Origin: Acidimicrobiales bacterium
GTDB lineage: Bacteria; Actinomycetota; Acidimicrobiia; Acidimicrobiales; Palsa-688
Assembly (NCBI GenBank): GCA_035533095.1
Contig: DATLUM010000141.1
Span: 1 to 46,200, forward strand
DNA length: 46,200 nucleotides
Direction of reading: 5' to 3'
The notes under the pieces were generated by a model that was not told the origin of the DNA, made no database searches, and saw only the letters and a program-made list of their open reading frames with translations. Of the stretch, positions 44 through 29,033 are shown one piece after another; position 1 is the stretch's first letter, and the number at the start of each line of letters is the position of its first letter. A program made the translations under genes and the position numbers.

Positions 44-89
44 GTGGAGGTGACCGGATTTGAACCGGCGACTTCTACGATGCGAACGT
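44..89 (-). repeat. Displaced 3' part of tRNA-Ala (distal att-like copy)
   Basis: This 46-bp stretch is identical to 2680-2725, which lies inside the intact tRNA-Ala gene. It covers the anticodon stem-loop, T arm and 3' acceptor strand. Identity stops at the 5' side of the anticodon stem, so this copy cannot fold as a tRNA. It is followed on the minus strand by an encoded CCA (42-44), whereas the intact gene at 2681 is followed by CAA. That is what is expected if this is the original 3' end, pushed away when an element carrying its own copy of the tRNA tail inserted. A hairpin-like GACGC/GCGTC pair at 1-21 could be the original tRNA terminator. Confidence 0.85.
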
Positions 90-236
90 TCTTTTTGGAC
101 CCCTTCCCCCTAGCGCAAAAGCACGAAGTTGCAGGTCAGGGGGGGTGTGCGAGGGCACTGCCGGGCATCGATGGGCCCGGAAAGGCACCCATTGAGACAC
201 GTTGAGACACGAACACTAGCGGAAATCGGACACTGA
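90..236. other. Non-coding left arm of the island
   Basis: No convincing gene. It contains a G-run around 141-147 and a perfect tandem 10-bp duplication, TTGAGACACG, at 192-201 and 202-211. Small open frames here have no plausible start signals or recognisable protein character. Confidence 0.5.
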
Positions 237-250
237 CGAACATATGTTCC
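237..250. promoter_or_regulatory. LexA/SOS-box-like palindrome
   Basis: The sequence CGAACATATGTTCC contains a perfect 12-bp palindrome (238-249). It fits the Gram-positive/actinobacterial SOS-box form CGAAC-RNRY-GTTYC at every position. It is about 230 bp upstream of the AbiEi-like gene, and no other gene start lies between. If functional, it would link island expression to DNA damage. The distance is long for direct repression of that gene, so it could instead serve an unannotated transcript. Confidence 0.45.
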
Positions 251-368
251 ACCCTGACGACCTTGGCGAAGATCGCCGTGTGGGATCAGGGCGGATCGGT
301 CGACGGGTCACCTCTGCCGTGCACTCGGCGGCGCCGAGCGGGACGCATTTCGCTCGGGGTCCCGTTAA

Positions 369-404
369 CTCTAAAAGCTCTAAAGACTCTAAAGACCTCT
401 AAAG
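369..404 (+). repeat. Four iteron-like CTCTAAAG repeats
   Basis: CTCTAAA occurs at 369, 378, 387 and 397, spaced 9, 9 and 10 bp, in an AT-rich patch within GC-rich DNA. The array ends about 80 bp before the AbiEi-like start. AbiEi-type antitoxins repress their own promoters, so these are candidate binding sites for the antitoxin. That assignment is inferred from position only. Confidence 0.6.
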
Positions 405-406
405 CT

Positions 407-439
407 AGGGATAGCACCCTGACGCCTAGATGCTACCCT
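407..439. promoter_or_regulatory. Inverted repeat in the TA promoter region
   Basis: AGGGATAGCA (407-416) and TGCTACCCT (431-439) are reverse complements apart from one missing base, separated by 14 nt. The pair lies directly after the CTCTAAAG repeats and before the TTGACA at 447. Together they look like a composite operator for the toxin-antitoxin operon. Confidence 0.5.
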
Positions 440-446
440 TCACTCA

Positions 447-477
447 TTGACAGTTTTCAGTGCGTAGTGAAGGATAC
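447..477 (+). promoter_or_regulatory. Candidate promoter and ribosome-binding site for the TA operon
   Basis: TTGACA (447-452) is a perfect -35 box. GGATAC (472-477), 19 bp later, could be the -10, which would start the transcript at about 484 as a leaderless message. Alternatively AAGGA (470-474) is a Shine-Dalgarno sequence 9 nt before GTG at 484, with the promoter further up. The two readings exclude each other; both favour the start at 484 over the GTG at 460. Confidence 0.45.
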
Positions 478-483
478 GAAATA

Positions 484-1542
484 GTGAAGGTCACGGTGAA
501 ACTCGAGCGGGCTGAACTCGATCGGTACGGGCGCATCTTCTCTGCCGTTCCCGAAGTCAACGTGATCCCGGACGCCAAGGCCGAGGTGATGATCAACGGC
601 CAGCACCGTCCGCTCATGGTACTGCCGCGACCGTCGTCGGGTTCCGATCCGGGCAGCGCCGCCCGACGCCTCGCTGAAACGCTGCCCAGAGGGGCGGTCG
701 GCTTGGTCGCTGCGCGGTCGATCCCTTACAACGAGCGAGACGCGATCGAAGTTGCAGGACTGTCGTGGTGCGACGGCCGCGGGGCGCTGCACCTGCGCTG
801 GCCCGGGATGCTCGTGCACGTCGATCACGGAGGCCGCCGGCTTGCGGCCAGTAGGAGCACCGGACCGGACGACCCTCATCTTGGCCCTGCCGGCATTCGC
901 GCTGTCCAGGTCCTGCTCGCCAGCGCGGAAGATGAGTGGACTGTCAATCGGCTGGCCGAACGAGCCGCGATCTCAGTCGGCCAAGCTCACAACGTCTTTC
1001 GCGCCATGGAACAGAAGCGGCTGGTTCACGCTGTCGGGAAGGGGCCCAAGCAACGCCGGGTGGTCGATGATCGCCGAGCCGCCCTGGATTGGCTCGCGGT
1101 CGTAGACGGCGCCCGTCGCCGCCCCCCCGCTTCTGCTACCTATCTTTACGGCCGCACCCAGGCTGAAGTCGCCCGGCGCTTCGCTGAACGAGCCGCCGCC
1201 ACCGGAGTTGCGTACGCCGTGACCGGCGCTGCGGCGAGCAGCCTGCTCGGCATACCGGTGCTAAGCCGTATTGTCGTCACACAGATCCGTGTCGGCGGTC
1301 TTCAACCCATCGAGGCACTGGCGCGCCTGGGCCTTGAACACCTCGAGGCAGACGATGCTGGCCGGGGCATGAACGTAGACGTGTGGAGAGACATCGGCGA
1401 GGTCGGAACGTTCAGCGCGTCGGAGGTTGATGGGGTCCGTGTCGCTCCGCCAATACGGGTGTGGTTGGATCTCCAACGACACGGCGGGCGCAACGTTGAT
1501 GCCGCCCAACTCTTCAGGGAGCAAGTCCTTGAACGAGCCTGA
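484..1542 (+). CDS. AbiEi-family (type IV) antitoxin / transcriptional regulator
   Basis: This 352-residue protein is probably the antitoxin and autorepressor of the pair with the next gene. The N-terminal part has the pattern seen in actinobacterial AbiEi-type proteins (around residues 75-115: LVAARSIPYN, AGLSWCDGRGALHL). A winged helix-turn-helix covers about 135-187. The C-terminal part ends in PIRVWLDLQRHGGR and AAQLFREQVL, typical of the AbiEi_2 family. In type IV systems the antitoxin does not bind the toxin but counters its effect and represses the operon. GTG at 484 is preferred over GTG at 460 because of AAGGA 9 nt upstream. The stop overlaps the next gene by 14 nt. The family call is by motif recognition. 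Confidence 0.75.
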   Translation: MKVTVKLERAELDRYGRIFSAVPEVNVIPDAKAEVMINGQHRPLMVLPRPSSGSDPGSAARRLAETLPRGAVGLVAARSIPYNERDAIEVAGLSWCDGRGALHLRWPGMLVHVDHGGRRLAASRSTGPDDPHLGPAGIRAVQVLLASAEDEWTVNRLAERAAISVGQAHNVFRAMEQKRLVHAVGKGPKQRRVVDDRRAALDWLAVVDGARRRPPASATYLYGRTQAEVARRFAERAAATGVAYAVTGAAASSLLGIPVLSRIVVTQIRVGGLQPIEALARLGLEHLEADDAGRGMNVDVWRDIGEVGTFSASEVDGVRVAPPIRVWLDLQRHGGRNVDAAQLFREQVLERA

Positions 1543-2413
1543 CGGACAGCACGTCGCAGGCTACGACTCGGATGTCGCCGGGGCGCTAGTCGGCGTAGCC
1601 GCCGACCTCGTACGTGCTCTCGGGTTTATGGCACGCCACGTTGTTCTCATCGGTGGCCTCGTCCCTGGACTGTTGGTGCCGGTCCTCGACCCCGGGATCG
1701 AACCGCATGTCGGCACCGCGGATATTGACCTGTGCCTGAGTGTCGCCCTTGTGGAGGGCGACACGGAAGCGTACGAGCGGATCGAGACGGTCCTCAGGAG
1801 CCTCGGGTTCCGCGAAGGCGACGCCTCGTTTCGCTGGCAGCGTCACGCGGATATTGGGCTCACCGTCGAGTTCTTCTGTCCGGCTGGCGAACAGCGCCCG
1901 GCAGGCCGCGTGTTCCGGCCAGCCCGCTCAGACAACCCGACAGGCAAGCACAACTTCGGCGGTCGGCTCTCGGCTCTCGCACTCGACGCCGGCGAACTGC
2001 TGACCACCGACATCGAGGTCGTCCACCCTTCGGTAGTCCTGCCGGAGAACAAGGGGATGCTCGACATGGACCTTCGCGTTACTGGGCCACTGGCGTTCTT
2101 GACGGCCAAGATCGATGCGTTGCGCGGCCGCGACAAACCGAAGGACGCCTATGACATCGTTTGGCTCATCGAAAGCTGGCCAGGCGGCCCAACCGCCGCG
2201 GCCCAATCCTTCTCACAACGCCCCGTCTTCCAGCGCTCTGAAGTAGTTGCCGCCCTTGAAGCGATCCGCGACGCCTTCGCGGCAGGTGACCGCGTCGGTG
2301 CCCGCAGCTACGCACGATTCTTGGCAACCGACGCCCGAGAGGAACCCCAACTCGAGCGTCGCGCTGTCGGTGCCATCGCCGAATTCACTGCCGCACTACC
2401 GATTCGAAGCTGA
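1529..2413 (+). CDS. AbiEii-family nucleotidyltransferase toxin
   Basis: This 294-residue protein is a predicted nucleotidyltransferase toxin. The fold signature is visible: IGG at about 41-43 (in place of the usual GS) followed by TADIDL, giving metal-binding Asp65 and Asp67. A later KPKDAYDIVWL segment matches the K-D-x-x-D region of AbiEii/MenA-like proteins. Start choice: TTG at 1529 has AGGGAG (1516-1521) 7 nt upstream. The open frame extends further up but would overlap most of the antitoxin's C-terminus. The 14-nt overlap with the antitoxin suggests translational coupling. MenA-type relatives modify tRNA 3' ends; whether this one does is unknown. Confidence 0.8.
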   Translation: MNEPDGQHVAGYDSDVAGALVGVAADLVRALGFMARHVVLIGGLVPGLLVPVLDPGIEPHVGTADIDLCLSVALVEGDTEAYERIETVLRSLGFREGDASFRWQRHADIGLTVEFFCPAGEQRPAGRVFRPARSDNPTGKHNFGGRLSALALDAGELLTTDIEVVHPSVVLPENKGMLDMDLRVTGPLAFLTAKIDALRGRDKPKDAYDIVWLIESWPGGPTAAAQSFSQRPVFQRSEVVAALEAIRDAFAAGDRVGARSYARFLATDAREEPQLERRAVGAIAEFTAALPIRS

Positions 2414-2679
2414 GGAACAGCGGCGACCGACGGCATCGAATCGTCGCTCGCGTCGACCACCATGCCCGCGGGACGCCATCCGGCGTGTCTTACCGTGTCT
2501 CATTTGACTGAGCCGGCCGGGACGATAAGCCCGTCTTCCCTTGTCGGGCTACATCAATACGCCCGAGAACACACCAAGTCCACTACCCCAGCAGGCTGCA
2601 AGGATGCGAATCTCAACCTCCAACGTAGAAGTCAAACGATCTTTTGGCGATCCCAAATATCGCTTCCACCAGGACTTTT
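2414..2679. other. Non-coding right arm of the island
   Basis: No gene seen. The last 110 bases are clearly more AT-rich than the surrounding DNA (for example around 2628-2680) and run straight into the tRNA. They are a natural place for recombinase arm sites, but I see no clear repeats. Confidence 0.45.
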
Positions 2680-2725
2680 GTGGAGGTGACCGGATTTGAA
2701 CCGGCGACTTCTACGATGCGAACGT
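2680..2725 (-). repeat. Proximal att-like copy inside tRNA-Ala
   Basis: Identical over 46 bp to 44-89. It supplies the 3' part of the working tRNA gene from the anticodon stem onward. The following bases encode CAA rather than CCA, suggesting this tail came with the element. Confidence 0.85.
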
Positions 2726-2754
2726 AGCGCTCTTCCGGGCTGAGCTACACCCCC
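2681..2754 (-). tRNA. tRNA-Ala (anticodon CGC)
   Basis: The 74-nt gene folds as a full cloverleaf. The acceptor is GGGGGTG paired with CACCTCC, including the G3-U70 wobble that marks alanine tRNAs, with discriminator A73. The anticodon stem CTACG/CGTAG closes the loop TTCGCAT, anticodon CGC, reading GCG. The T loop is TTCAAAT. No CCA is encoded (CAA follows). It lies 72 bp downstream of the translin-family gene, on the same strand. Its 3' part is repeated at 44-89. Confidence 0.95.
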
Positions 2755-2826: not shown

Positions 2827-3474
2827 TTACGCCCGTTCCTCCTTGGCCCGCTGCTCGAGGGCTTCTTGGAGACGCACTTGCAGCAGGGTCGTGGTGACGT
2901 CGCTGCGGGTGCGCTCGAGGACCGCTCGCAGCGCGTCGGCGGTCCGCCGCAGCCCACCCGTCACGGCGTCGGGGTAGTCCACTACGACGAGGGCCTCGTA
3001 GACATCCTCCATCTGGGCGAGGAGCCTCTCGGCCATGTCGGTCTCGCCGGCGCGCAGCCTGTCGAGCAGGTGCCGGCGCAGTTCGGACGCGGCCTCCGCC
3101 AGGCCGTTCAGCCATGCGGGCAGACCGACCTGAAGCTCGTCCCAGCCGGGCAGGTCGCCAGCGCTCACGAGACGGGCGGTGAGGACCGCCTCTGCGTATT
3201 CCTTCTCGGCGTCGTGAAGAAAGCCGGCGTAGGCGACCATCGGGAAGGGAGCGAGCGCGTTTTGGGCCTCCCTCAGCGCCGATTCGCAGTCGGCGGTCAA
3301 AGAGGCCGCCCTTTCGGGATCCCGCCTGTGCACCGCCCGGATGGCACTGCTCGCCAGACGGATCGTCCGCCGGCACGCCCCGAGCCCGGACTCGCGGGCG
3401 GCGTTGACCGCGTCCAGCCGCTCGCGTGCCTGGTCGATCCGGCTTGGAAGATCGGGCGGCGAGCCCTGACTCAC
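2827..3474 (-). CDS. Translin-family protein
   Basis: A 215-residue all-helical protein resembling archaeal and actinobacterial translin-family members. Visible signatures are an N-terminal helix with RTIRLASSAIRAVHR, then HDAEKEYAEA (acidic positions like the TRAX catalytic Glu pair), WLNGLAEAASELRRHLLDRL, and VDYPDAVTGGLRR with ERTRSDV near the C-terminus. Eukaryotic translin/TRAX forms the C3PO RNase; the bacterial role is not established. GTG start at 3474. It is the last gene of the galU-to-SepX run, 13 nt after the previous stop, with tRNA-Ala just downstream. Such proteins are sometimes misannotated as haloacid dehalogenases. Confidence 0.75.
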   Translation of the reverse strand: MSQGSPPDLPSRIDQARERLDAVNAARESGLGACRRTIRLASSAIRAVHRRDPERAASLTADCESALREAQNALAPFPMVAYAGFLHDAEKEYAEAVLTARLVSAGDLPGWDELQVGLPAWLNGLAEAASELRRHLLDRLRAGETDMAERLLAQMEDVYEALVVVDYPDAVTGGLRRTADALRAVLERTRSDVTTTLLQVRLQEALEQRAKEERA

Positions 3475-3487
3475 TGAAGTCTTTGGG

Positions 3488-4093
3488 TCAGTTGGCAGCG
3501 CGGCGCAGGTCCAGGTCGCCGTAGCCGGATGCGCCCATGTCGTAGGCGGGGCGCGGGCGGGCGGGGCGCGCAGTCTGAGGCATGAAGGTGAGTTTCAGCT
3601 CCCGCTCGGCGGCCAGGTTTCGCAAGCGGATTAGAAGCGCGACGTACGCGGTGAACAGCAGGTCGAACACGACTTGCACGGTCCACATCGCCGACACGCT
3701 CGACACGACGCTCAACAGCAAGGAGCCGAGAACTCCGGCGAGCAGCGCGAAGAACACGTCGCGCCGGCGCTTCTGCGACCGCCGGCGGGCGGCCGACGAC
3801 TGGGGGCGGGACTGCGCGGGCCGGGCCGCCGGGGCGGCGCCAGGACGCGGCTGCGCGAGGTTCTGGCCCGGAATGCGGGCCGGCGGGCGGTACGGGGGGA
3901 TGGTCGCGCGGCCGGCCACCGGACCGCTGCGGAGGCGATTCGCGGGGGCGACGACGGGAGGCGTCGCTCGTTCGAGCACGGTCAGGTGCCGGCGGAAGGT
4001 CCCTACCGAGTCGGAGAAGGTGCCCTCGGTCCGTGAACGCAGCCACGAGACCAGGAGGACGCCCCAGATAATGGCCAGAACCAGCAGAACCAC
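3488..4093 (-). CDS. SepX/GlpR-like divisome membrane protein
   Basis: Predicted membrane protein of about 201 residues. An N-terminal span (VLLVLAIIWGVLLVSWL) is followed by an Arg/Ser-rich stretch with GTFRRHLTVLERATP. A long Pro/Arg-rich cytoplasmic linker comes next, then a basic RRRSQKRRR patch, then two close spans, then a charged tail. This layout and the FRRxLxVLERA element match the actinobacterial SepX/GlpR family, which binds the gephyrin-like MoeA homologue Glp and acts at the FtsZ ring. The neighbourhood (galU, moeA) is the one GlpR occupies in other actinobacteria. I prefer GTG at 4093, with GAGGAG 11 nt upstream. The open frame continues to GTG 4180 without a ribosome site. Confidence 0.65.
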   Translation of the reverse strand: MVLLVLAIIWGVLLVSWLRSRTEGTFSDSVGTFRRHLTVLERATPPVVAPANRLRSGPVAGRATIPPYRPPARIPGQNLAQPRPGAAPAARPAQSRPQSSAARRRSQKRRRDVFFALLAGVLGSLLLSVVSSVSAMWTVQVVFDLLFTAYVALLIRLRNLAAERELKLTFMPQTARPARPRPAYDMGASGYGDLDLRRAAN

Positions 4094-4231
4094 AGTAGTC
4101 AAGACTCCTCGGCCTACTTTCGCTATAGGGGACCGTAGGACTCGGCGCGCCGAGAGTGGTGGATGCCAACTCCAGTGCACCTGACCCGGGGTCCGGCCGG
4201 TACGGGAACGATCTGGCTTTCTTTCTCAGCC

Positions 4232-27821: not shown

Positions 27822-29033
27822 TCAGCGACCGAACAGGGCGATGCAGTCGCGGCTGCTCGCGGTGAGGTAGTGATAGGGCGACGGCTCCATGTTGACGAGG
27901 AGCTTCGTCACGGTGAGATCCGCCGCAGGCATCCCCGGCGGGGCGGACGAGTACGTGAAAAAGTCGACCCACGCAGTGTTGATGTCCAGCTCCATGGCGC
28001 GCACCGCGCCCGCTCGTGACAAGAGATCCGCAAGGGTGGCGACGCTGAGACCGGGACCGGCCGCGTACACCAGCGCTCCGCCGGGTGTAACGCCTATCCC
28101 TGATCTCCAGACCATCACCTTGTTCGAGACCGTGAAGCCCCACTGGACGGGGTTGTTGTCCTGTACGCCTGGCACCGGCTGCCCTCCGTCGACGATCAGG
28201 TCGAGGTTCTGGCGGGCGAACACGATGTCCGGGCTCATGGTGACGTCGCGGCCCCACTCGCCGACATCGAGATTCCCGTTGCTGTCGATCCACATCGTCG
28301 CGGCGCCGGCGCGCAGCGGGCGCACGTACCGACCGTGGTCGTAGTAGCCGCCTCGAGAGTCCTGCATCTTGAAGCCTGAGTTGAATGCTGCGAGCAGGTC
28401 CGGCCGTACCGCGTCGGGGATCGGAAGCTGGTTCGTCCAGCCGGATCCGCCTGGCTCAGCAGCTCCGGCGTAGCCGACCGCGTTGACCAGCTTCGGGTCG
28501 ATCCACGCCAGCGCGGCCACGAGACTGGTGTGCACGCCGTCCGGCCTGAGGTAGGTGGCGTACATCGCCGGGATCCCCTTGACCGGAGTGCCGAGCGGCC
28601 GCCATAGGCCCTCGCCAGGCAAGGCGTCCGCCACGTAGGGCCTCACCGGCGAAGGCGGTGGTAGGAACACCACCCTGGGTGGGGCGGCGAAATCGCCACG
28701 AGATTGGCGACCTGCGCTCACCTGGGCTCGCAGCACCCGGCTCGGGGTTCCCCCCTTCTTGGGTTGGTGGTGGCTGTACCAGTAGTTCTCGACGTCGTTG
28801 ACGAGCCAGCGGAAATGGTGGCCTCGCAGCCACTCGACCGACCTGATGCTGAGGGCGTCCGTACCCGGCCCGGTCAGGGCCCGGGTGTAGGAATAGGCCA
28901 CCGGGCTGAGCAGCGCGACGACCACGGTGAGCGCGATCCACCTCTTTCGCCGGTACCAAGGGCGCCGCGACGGCGATCCGGCCCCGGGCGCGTCGGAAGC
29001 TGGACGAGCGGGAGCGCGAGGGTCAGTGAGCAT
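27822..29033 (-). CDS. Exported phosphodiester-glycosidase (NAGPA) family protein
   Basis: About 403 residues. A short basic N-terminus leads to a signal anchor (RWIALTVVVALLSPVAYSY). The C-terminal half holds the NAGPA-type pattern: AAFNSGFKMQDSRGGYY, IVDGGQPVPG, and VRAMELDINTAWVDF. Relatives cleave phosphodiester-linked sugars and are linked with exopolysaccharide and teichoic-acid-type polymers. ATG at 29033 (MLTDPRAP) is preferred over GTG 29054. It is divergent from the multi-span membrane protein at 29132, a hint of a shared envelope job. Confidence 0.78.
   Translation of the reverse strand: MLTDPRAPARPASDAPGAGSPSRRPWYRRKRWIALTVVVALLSPVAYSYTRALTGPGTDALSIRSVEWLRGHHFRWLVNDVENYWYSHHQPKKGGTPSRVLRAQVSAGRQSRGDFAAPPRVVFLPPPSPVRPYVADALPGEGLWRPLGTPVKGIPAMYATYLRPDGVHTSLVAALAWIDPKLVNAVGYAGAAEPGGSGWTNQLPIPDAVRPDLLAAFNSGFKMQDSRGGYYDHGRYVRPLRAGAATMWIDSNGNLDVGEWGRDVTMSPDIVFARQNLDLIVDGGQPVPGVQDNNPVQWGFTVSNKVMVWRSGIGVTPGGALVYAAGPGLSVATLADLLSRAGAVRAMELDINTAWVDFFTYSSAPPGMPAADLTVTKLLVNMEPSPYHYLTASSRDCIALFGR

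Follow-up and report, generated by a model that had tools for sequence, protein, structure and literature searches.

We propose that positions 44-2725 of the window are a CIME, an att-bounded element that has integrated into the 3' half of tRNA-Ala(CGC) and has no integrase, and that an integrase of a clade of 430-aa tyrosine integrases probably placed it there; overall, we consider this reading likely. A CIME (cis-mobilizable element) is a decayed element whose att sites are kept and whose integration and transfer genes are lost (PMC5704250, PMC7563491). By the window we mean the whole stretch of 46,200 nucleotides that was analysed, which is contig 141 from its first base (1-46200) in an assembly of 3.44 Mb and 142 contigs from an uncultured actinobacterium. 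The features that we refer to are:

1-43, no strand assigned: DNA past the distal att copy, which is either chromosomal DNA of the host or the first bases of another element
44-89, minus strand: distal att core, identical to the 3' half of tRNA-Ala(CGC); it runs from the anticodon stem-loop through the base that follows the discriminator
80-86, minus strand: anticodon loop TTCGCAT of the distal copy, the probable 7-bp crossover region (from the alignment of halves)
132-139, plus strand: CAGGTCAG (CTGACCTG in the tRNA sense), a core-proximal P-arm motif common to relatives
192-211, plus strand: putative arm-type site pair TTGAGACACG TTGAGACACG in the P arm, about 103 nt from the core
373-404, plus strand: a set of three direct repeats (CTCTAAAG type) that precedes the operon
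484-1542, plus strand: antitoxin-like gene (N-terminal domain, winged helix, and C-terminal degenerate nucleotidyltransferase-like domain), with an alternative GTG start at 460
1529-2413, plus strand: AbiEii/MenT-type nucleotidyltransferase toxin-like gene, whose TTG start overlaps the antitoxin stop
2484-2502, minus strand: putative inverted arm-type pair in the P' arm (CGTGTCTTA C CGTGTCTCA on the plus strand)
2668-2679, minus strand: start of the P' arm, AAAAGTCCTGGT (tRNA sense), the same as in the integrase-bearing element of genome G265
2680-2754, minus strand: tRNA-Ala(CGC), the integration target (ARAGORN), with its 3' half (2680-2725) as the tRNA-side att core

This tRNA is the only one that ARAGORN finds in the window. 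Its 3' half is repeated exactly over 46 nt (44-89 and 2680-2725), or at 96% identity over 51 nt if the flanks are included (39-89 and 2675-2725), and an exact match of this kind is far beyond chance. The copy at 44-89 is the sole second copy across the 3.44-Mb assembly. The earlier note had described exact tRNA-Ala copies around just two genes and control DNA, and this is what we see: the unit of about 2.6 kb contains two long overlapping ORFs (460/484-1542 and 1529-2413) and noncoding stretches of about 370 and 266 bp. The note had also seen no recombinase, and our protein-family search agrees, with no match to recombinase families between the copies. The unit thus has the makeup of a CIME: attL and attR of one integration site, as 46-nt core copies with predicted arm-type sites at both ends, and no integrase, relaxase, or transfer genes, as neither of the two long ORFs encodes a recombinase or a transfer protein. 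Among the tblastn matches listed for the noncoding DNA of the unit, there were only marginal short ones and no convincing integrase stub. The difference between CCA after the distal copy and CAA in the rebuilt tRNA, which had been taken to show the direction of insertion, is not diagnostic: CCA also follows the core at element-derived boundaries in relatives. Better indicators of polarity are the 5' half of the tRNA, of which 2726-2754 is the single copy, and the conserved genes to the right of it.

Many genomes of the order have these genes (2827-3474, 3488-4180, and those that follow, apparently moaC and moaA) next to the same tRNA, and the left side of the tRNA differs nearly everywhere. 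Given the conserved right side and the variable left side, we are looking at one orthologous integration site, and tRNA-Ala(CGC) is an accretion site across the order. Several relatives have two or three tRNA halves in one contig: contig C121 of G016 has halves at 3800, 5074, and 20928 and the full tRNA at 27882; C51 of G021 has halves at three places; and C109 of G032 has two halves and the full tRNA. The units at this site that are bounded on both sides on single contigs include a 1.3-kb unit in G016 with a DUF433-DUF5615 pair; a 7-kb att-bounded unit in the same genome (1231-7189 of L034) with a DO-GTPase1/DO-GTPase2/GAP1-N1/metallophosphatase cluster; a 2.5-kb unit in G299 with TacA-GNAT; a 3.2-kb unit in G062 with a TetR regulator and an MFS transporter; and units in G032 that were invaded by IS and introns. 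None of these units contains a complete tyrosine integrase, and a 15.9-kb unit in G016 does. Most of the small units at the site lack an integrase, and several hold just a toxin-antitoxin pair or a conflict system. The two-sided units are few and were not drawn at random, so we claim no enrichment of toxin-antitoxin cargo. The assemblies of the relatives are fragmented, and their tRNA contigs often stop near the site.

Tandem tRNA tails with unrelated DNA between them, in genomes that lack the toxin-antitoxin genes, had been named beforehand as evidence against insertion. Such arrangements do exist, at the same hotspot but in other genera and with other cargo, and they fit modular insertion instead of refuting it. 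The same flanked unit was also looked for in other genomes, and no second genome has the window's unit with identical ends. Two further observations concern the site itself. One tRNA-Ala-bounded unit of G032 (5271-10080 of L038) carries an HTH-nucleotidyltransferase gene, transposase pieces, and a group II intron reverse transcriptase. In G016, contigs C121 (L033/L034) and C127 (L035) of one assembly have the same full tRNA-Ala and different DNA on its 3' side, which suggests a strain mixture, a duplication, or active rearrangement at the site.

Comparing 26 copies of the tRNA half, we found that they agree from the anticodon loop to the 3' end of the tRNA; they differ in the anticodon stem, on its 5' strand. 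Because the halves diverge just 5' of the loop, strand exchange probably takes place in or next to the 7-nt anticodon loop. This placement also draws on the known crossover habits of tRNA-targeting tyrosine integrases. The 636 bp of noncoding DNA in the unit contains four 9-bp arm-type sites (with at most one mismatch), where 0.03 would be expected from the other 43 kb of the window. We infer that these repeats are integrase binding sites. Tandem pairs of 9-mers, spaced by 9-12 nt and 60-170 nt from the core, are present in 20 of the 28 P arms of relatives, as compared to 11% of random stretches from the same contigs; the 28 arms are not all independent, and the related sites make the nominal p value of 1e-13 too small. 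On the other side of the unit, G265 has the same P' arm start (AAAAGTCCTGGT) as the window, just past the core, and none of 5,000 random sequences scored as well. Otherwise the window's P' arm is atypical: the pair is inverted, it lies about 178 nt from the core (roughly 55-80 nt in relatives), and CTGGTCAG, the usual motif at element starts, is degenerate there.

These repeats bear on whether the tRNA half at the contig end could have joined unrelated DNA to this locus during assembly. The source assembly is fragmented (142 contigs), the distal copy lies at a contig end, and the same tRNA is found on two contigs of G016. But a false join would not create arm-type repeats, with a geometry known from other genomes, inside the unit and by the distal copy, and the same architecture recurs within long contigs of other genomes. 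We therefore think that an assembly artefact is very improbable.

To find the arm pair elsewhere, we scanned 32 genomes of the family for TTGAGWCACGTTGAGWCACG with two mismatches allowed; there were 10 places, and the reversed control gave 0. Six of the 10 adjoin a tRNA-Ala half or gene (in the window, G264, G016, G002, G022, and C277 of G267), and these include other genera. In G264, the arm pair sits between the tRNA and a gene for a 430-aa tyrosine integrase. Relatives of this integrase are found in G265 (70% identity), G011 (62%), and G001 (57-72%, in two pieces), and all four integrases of the clade that we found in the family adjoin tRNA-Ala(CGC). The arms of the G265 element are CGGGACTCAA. 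Arm sequence does not track the clade strictly, as the arm repeat of the G011 integrase is another one (GGACCTATCT); the unit fits the clade and not every member of it. Integrases whose att core equals the tRNA half, which the earlier note had suggested looking for, do exist in relatives at tRNA-Ala(CGC), and its proposal of site-specific insertion is supported. A second group of integrases occupies the same tRNA site in other elements. No integrase of the 430-aa clade was found in the window's own assembly (E 1e-25), and neither the core pattern nor the arm pair is present in viral contigs. The assembly itself has at least 47 other integrase-family matches, and six of its contigs (C18, C86, C98, C102, C124, and C126) have two or three tyrosine-recombinase genes close together.

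How might an integrase-free unit have arisen at this site? An integrase of the 430-aa clade, as seen in relatives, probably inserted the unit. After binding to the paired arm-type sites (TTGAGACACG), it would carry out strand exchange within the 7-bp anticodon loop, which would rebuild the tRNA with a 3' half borne by the element and displace the old half to 44-89. The integrase gene would have been lost subsequently, or the integrase would have been supplied in trans from the outset. The AbiE/MenT-type gene pair may persist because its loss is costly, and the unit could exit only with a matching integrase from another element.

The earlier note had left two readings, a stabilised remnant and a trans-mobilised cassette. 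Both stay alive, and we lean towards the decay of larger elements: integrase stubs are still present at the core of some sister units (69, 75, and 92 residues in G062, G286, and G002, respectively), and CIMEs of 1.2-13 kb have been described. The window's own unit has no such stub among the matches listed. If small att-bounded toxin-antitoxin or conflict units had never been complete islands and relied for their movement on integrases from other elements at this tRNA, then this absence and the arm-type sites at both ends would be expected. Such mobilisation is possible because these sites are present and because the integrase-free DO-GTPase/GAP1 unit of G016 shares its start with an integrase-bearing neighbour: its first 80 nt are 85-86% identical to the starts of the adjacent element and of one in G021, both of which bear integrases. 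Similarity of the P arms ends at the outer edge of the arm pair, the cargo beyond it differs, and several units of 1.3-3.6 kb stand in tandem. However, conserved arms with variable cargo are equally expected after deletion, an identical cassette in two genomes was not found, sister units have stubs, and the P' arm in the window is atypical. We consider it unlikely that the unit was purpose-built for movement in trans.

The integrated CIME, which we continue to prefer, is compatible with a different proposal about the DNA to the left of base 44. The unit might be the one nearest the tRNA in a longer array or island that continues beyond the contig end, where another member might encode an integrase able to carry the unit in cis. 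The contig breaks 43 bp past the distal copy, and relatives have two to three tRNA halves per contig. The 9-mer GCACGAAGT flanks the distal core on both sides (27-35 and 120-128), as an arm element might, but it may also be there by chance. Bases 1-43 lack the usual start motif CTGGTCAG, although some elements lack it too, and the assembly holds just two copies of the core. A longer array is a reasonable possibility that we would not bet on. Bases 1-43 are either host chromosome or the beginning of another element, and are too short to name. A terminator hairpin in these bases was considered and rejected, as the candidate is weak (z of -1.2) and folds no better than many shuffles. An empty site, with one tRNA tail followed by the sequence to the left of 44, had been proposed as confirmation of insertion; in our search of 397 genomes of the order, we found none, and the junction of 1-43 with the tRNA is absent from all the others. 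In named genomes, the exact tRNA half matched eight stretches, all from MAGs with the names Actinomycetes bacterium or Actinobacteria bacterium; this search may omit records very near the window.

The two genes in the unit are predicted to form an AbiE/MenT-type pair, with a MenT-fold toxin and an antitoxin that combines a winged helix with a degenerate nucleotidyltransferase-like domain; toxicity and its neutralisation are only predicted. The toxin-like protein barely passes the cutoff of PF08843 (22.8 bits versus 22.5), and 7 of the 12 aligned members match this model. The alignment has invariant D64, D66, K193, R200, K204, D205, Y207, and D208, which includes the DxD motif, and the predicted structure (mean pLDDT of 84) fits MenT1, MenT3, and MenT4 at Z of 10.6-12.1. 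In the antitoxin model (pLDDT of 83), an N-terminal domain precedes a winged helix (about 118-213); the C-terminal part fits MenT1 with Z of 10, but the alignment shows no conserved DxD in it. This protein matches none of the AbiEi models in Pfam or NCBIfam, so it is not assigned to any described AbiEi sequence family; given its winged helix and nucleotidyltransferase-like fold, it may still act like AbiEi. No AbiEi structure is among the matches listed for the antitoxin model, which proves nothing. NCBIfam names neither gene. PADLOC matches the toxin to AbiEii only weakly and does not match the antitoxin, and to speak of "defence" for this pair reflects only a family association. The CTCTAAAG-type repeats at 373-404 are a possible operator for the antitoxin.

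About a dozen genomes of the order have both genes together. The closest homologous pair, in G101 (71% identity for the toxin and 53% for the antitoxin), was excluded as an instance of the same unit because it is not beside a tRNA-Ala half. We found no relative of the toxin in phages, and in plasmids there were only distant AbiEii proteins (under 60% identity). In L083 (C128 of G007), a gene pair closely related to that of the window (about 85% nucleotide identity) survives as a remnant at positions 339-823, in which fragments of the antitoxin and the toxin are fused through an internal deletion.

In this actinobacterial order, which has been little studied, one tRNA gene serves as an accretion site, with single toxin-antitoxin or conflict systems kept between putative integrase sites and with no integrase. 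The arm-type sites give a direct handle on whether such units are dead remnants or substrates of their neighbours' integrases. More speculatively, and we doubt it, tRNA-Ala(CGC) of this order could be the loading site for an array of single-system cassettes that are short and integrase-free, retain all of the integrase binding sites, and depend on integrases of other elements for movement. Such an array would be functionally integron-like, with no attC.

The CIMEs of streptococci, which derive from ICEs and IMEs, are similar to the window's unit in that they are att-bounded, lack integrase and transfer genes, and stand in tandem with integrase-bearing elements; with their cargo, they are 1.2-13 kb (PMC5704250, PMC7563491). 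In contrast, the window's unit is from another lineage, uses another target, and carries a toxin-antitoxin pair alone, and its cognate integrase clade is absent from the assembly. The likeness is one of anatomy, and descent by deletion is a proposed history for the window's unit. In Dehalococcoides, islands at ssrA are also in tandem and bounded by copies of the 3' end of an RNA gene, and 15 of them lack an integration module and were proposed to be CIMEs (PMC3146451). Those islands use a serine recombinase module and ssrA, whereas the elements here use tyrosine integrases and tRNA-Ala(CGC). As for the cargo, AbiEi/AbiEii and MenAT pairs are likewise two-gene operons with the antitoxin first, and they share with our models a toxin of the MenT1/MenT3/MenT4 fold and an antitoxin with a winged helix and a nucleotidyltransferase-like C-terminal part. 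Unlike AbiEi, the window's antitoxin has no Pfam or NCBIfam AbiEi match, and it has an extra N-terminal domain of about 115 residues, so that its predicted winged helix is internal; as compared to AbiEii, the toxin only just passes the Pfam cutoff.
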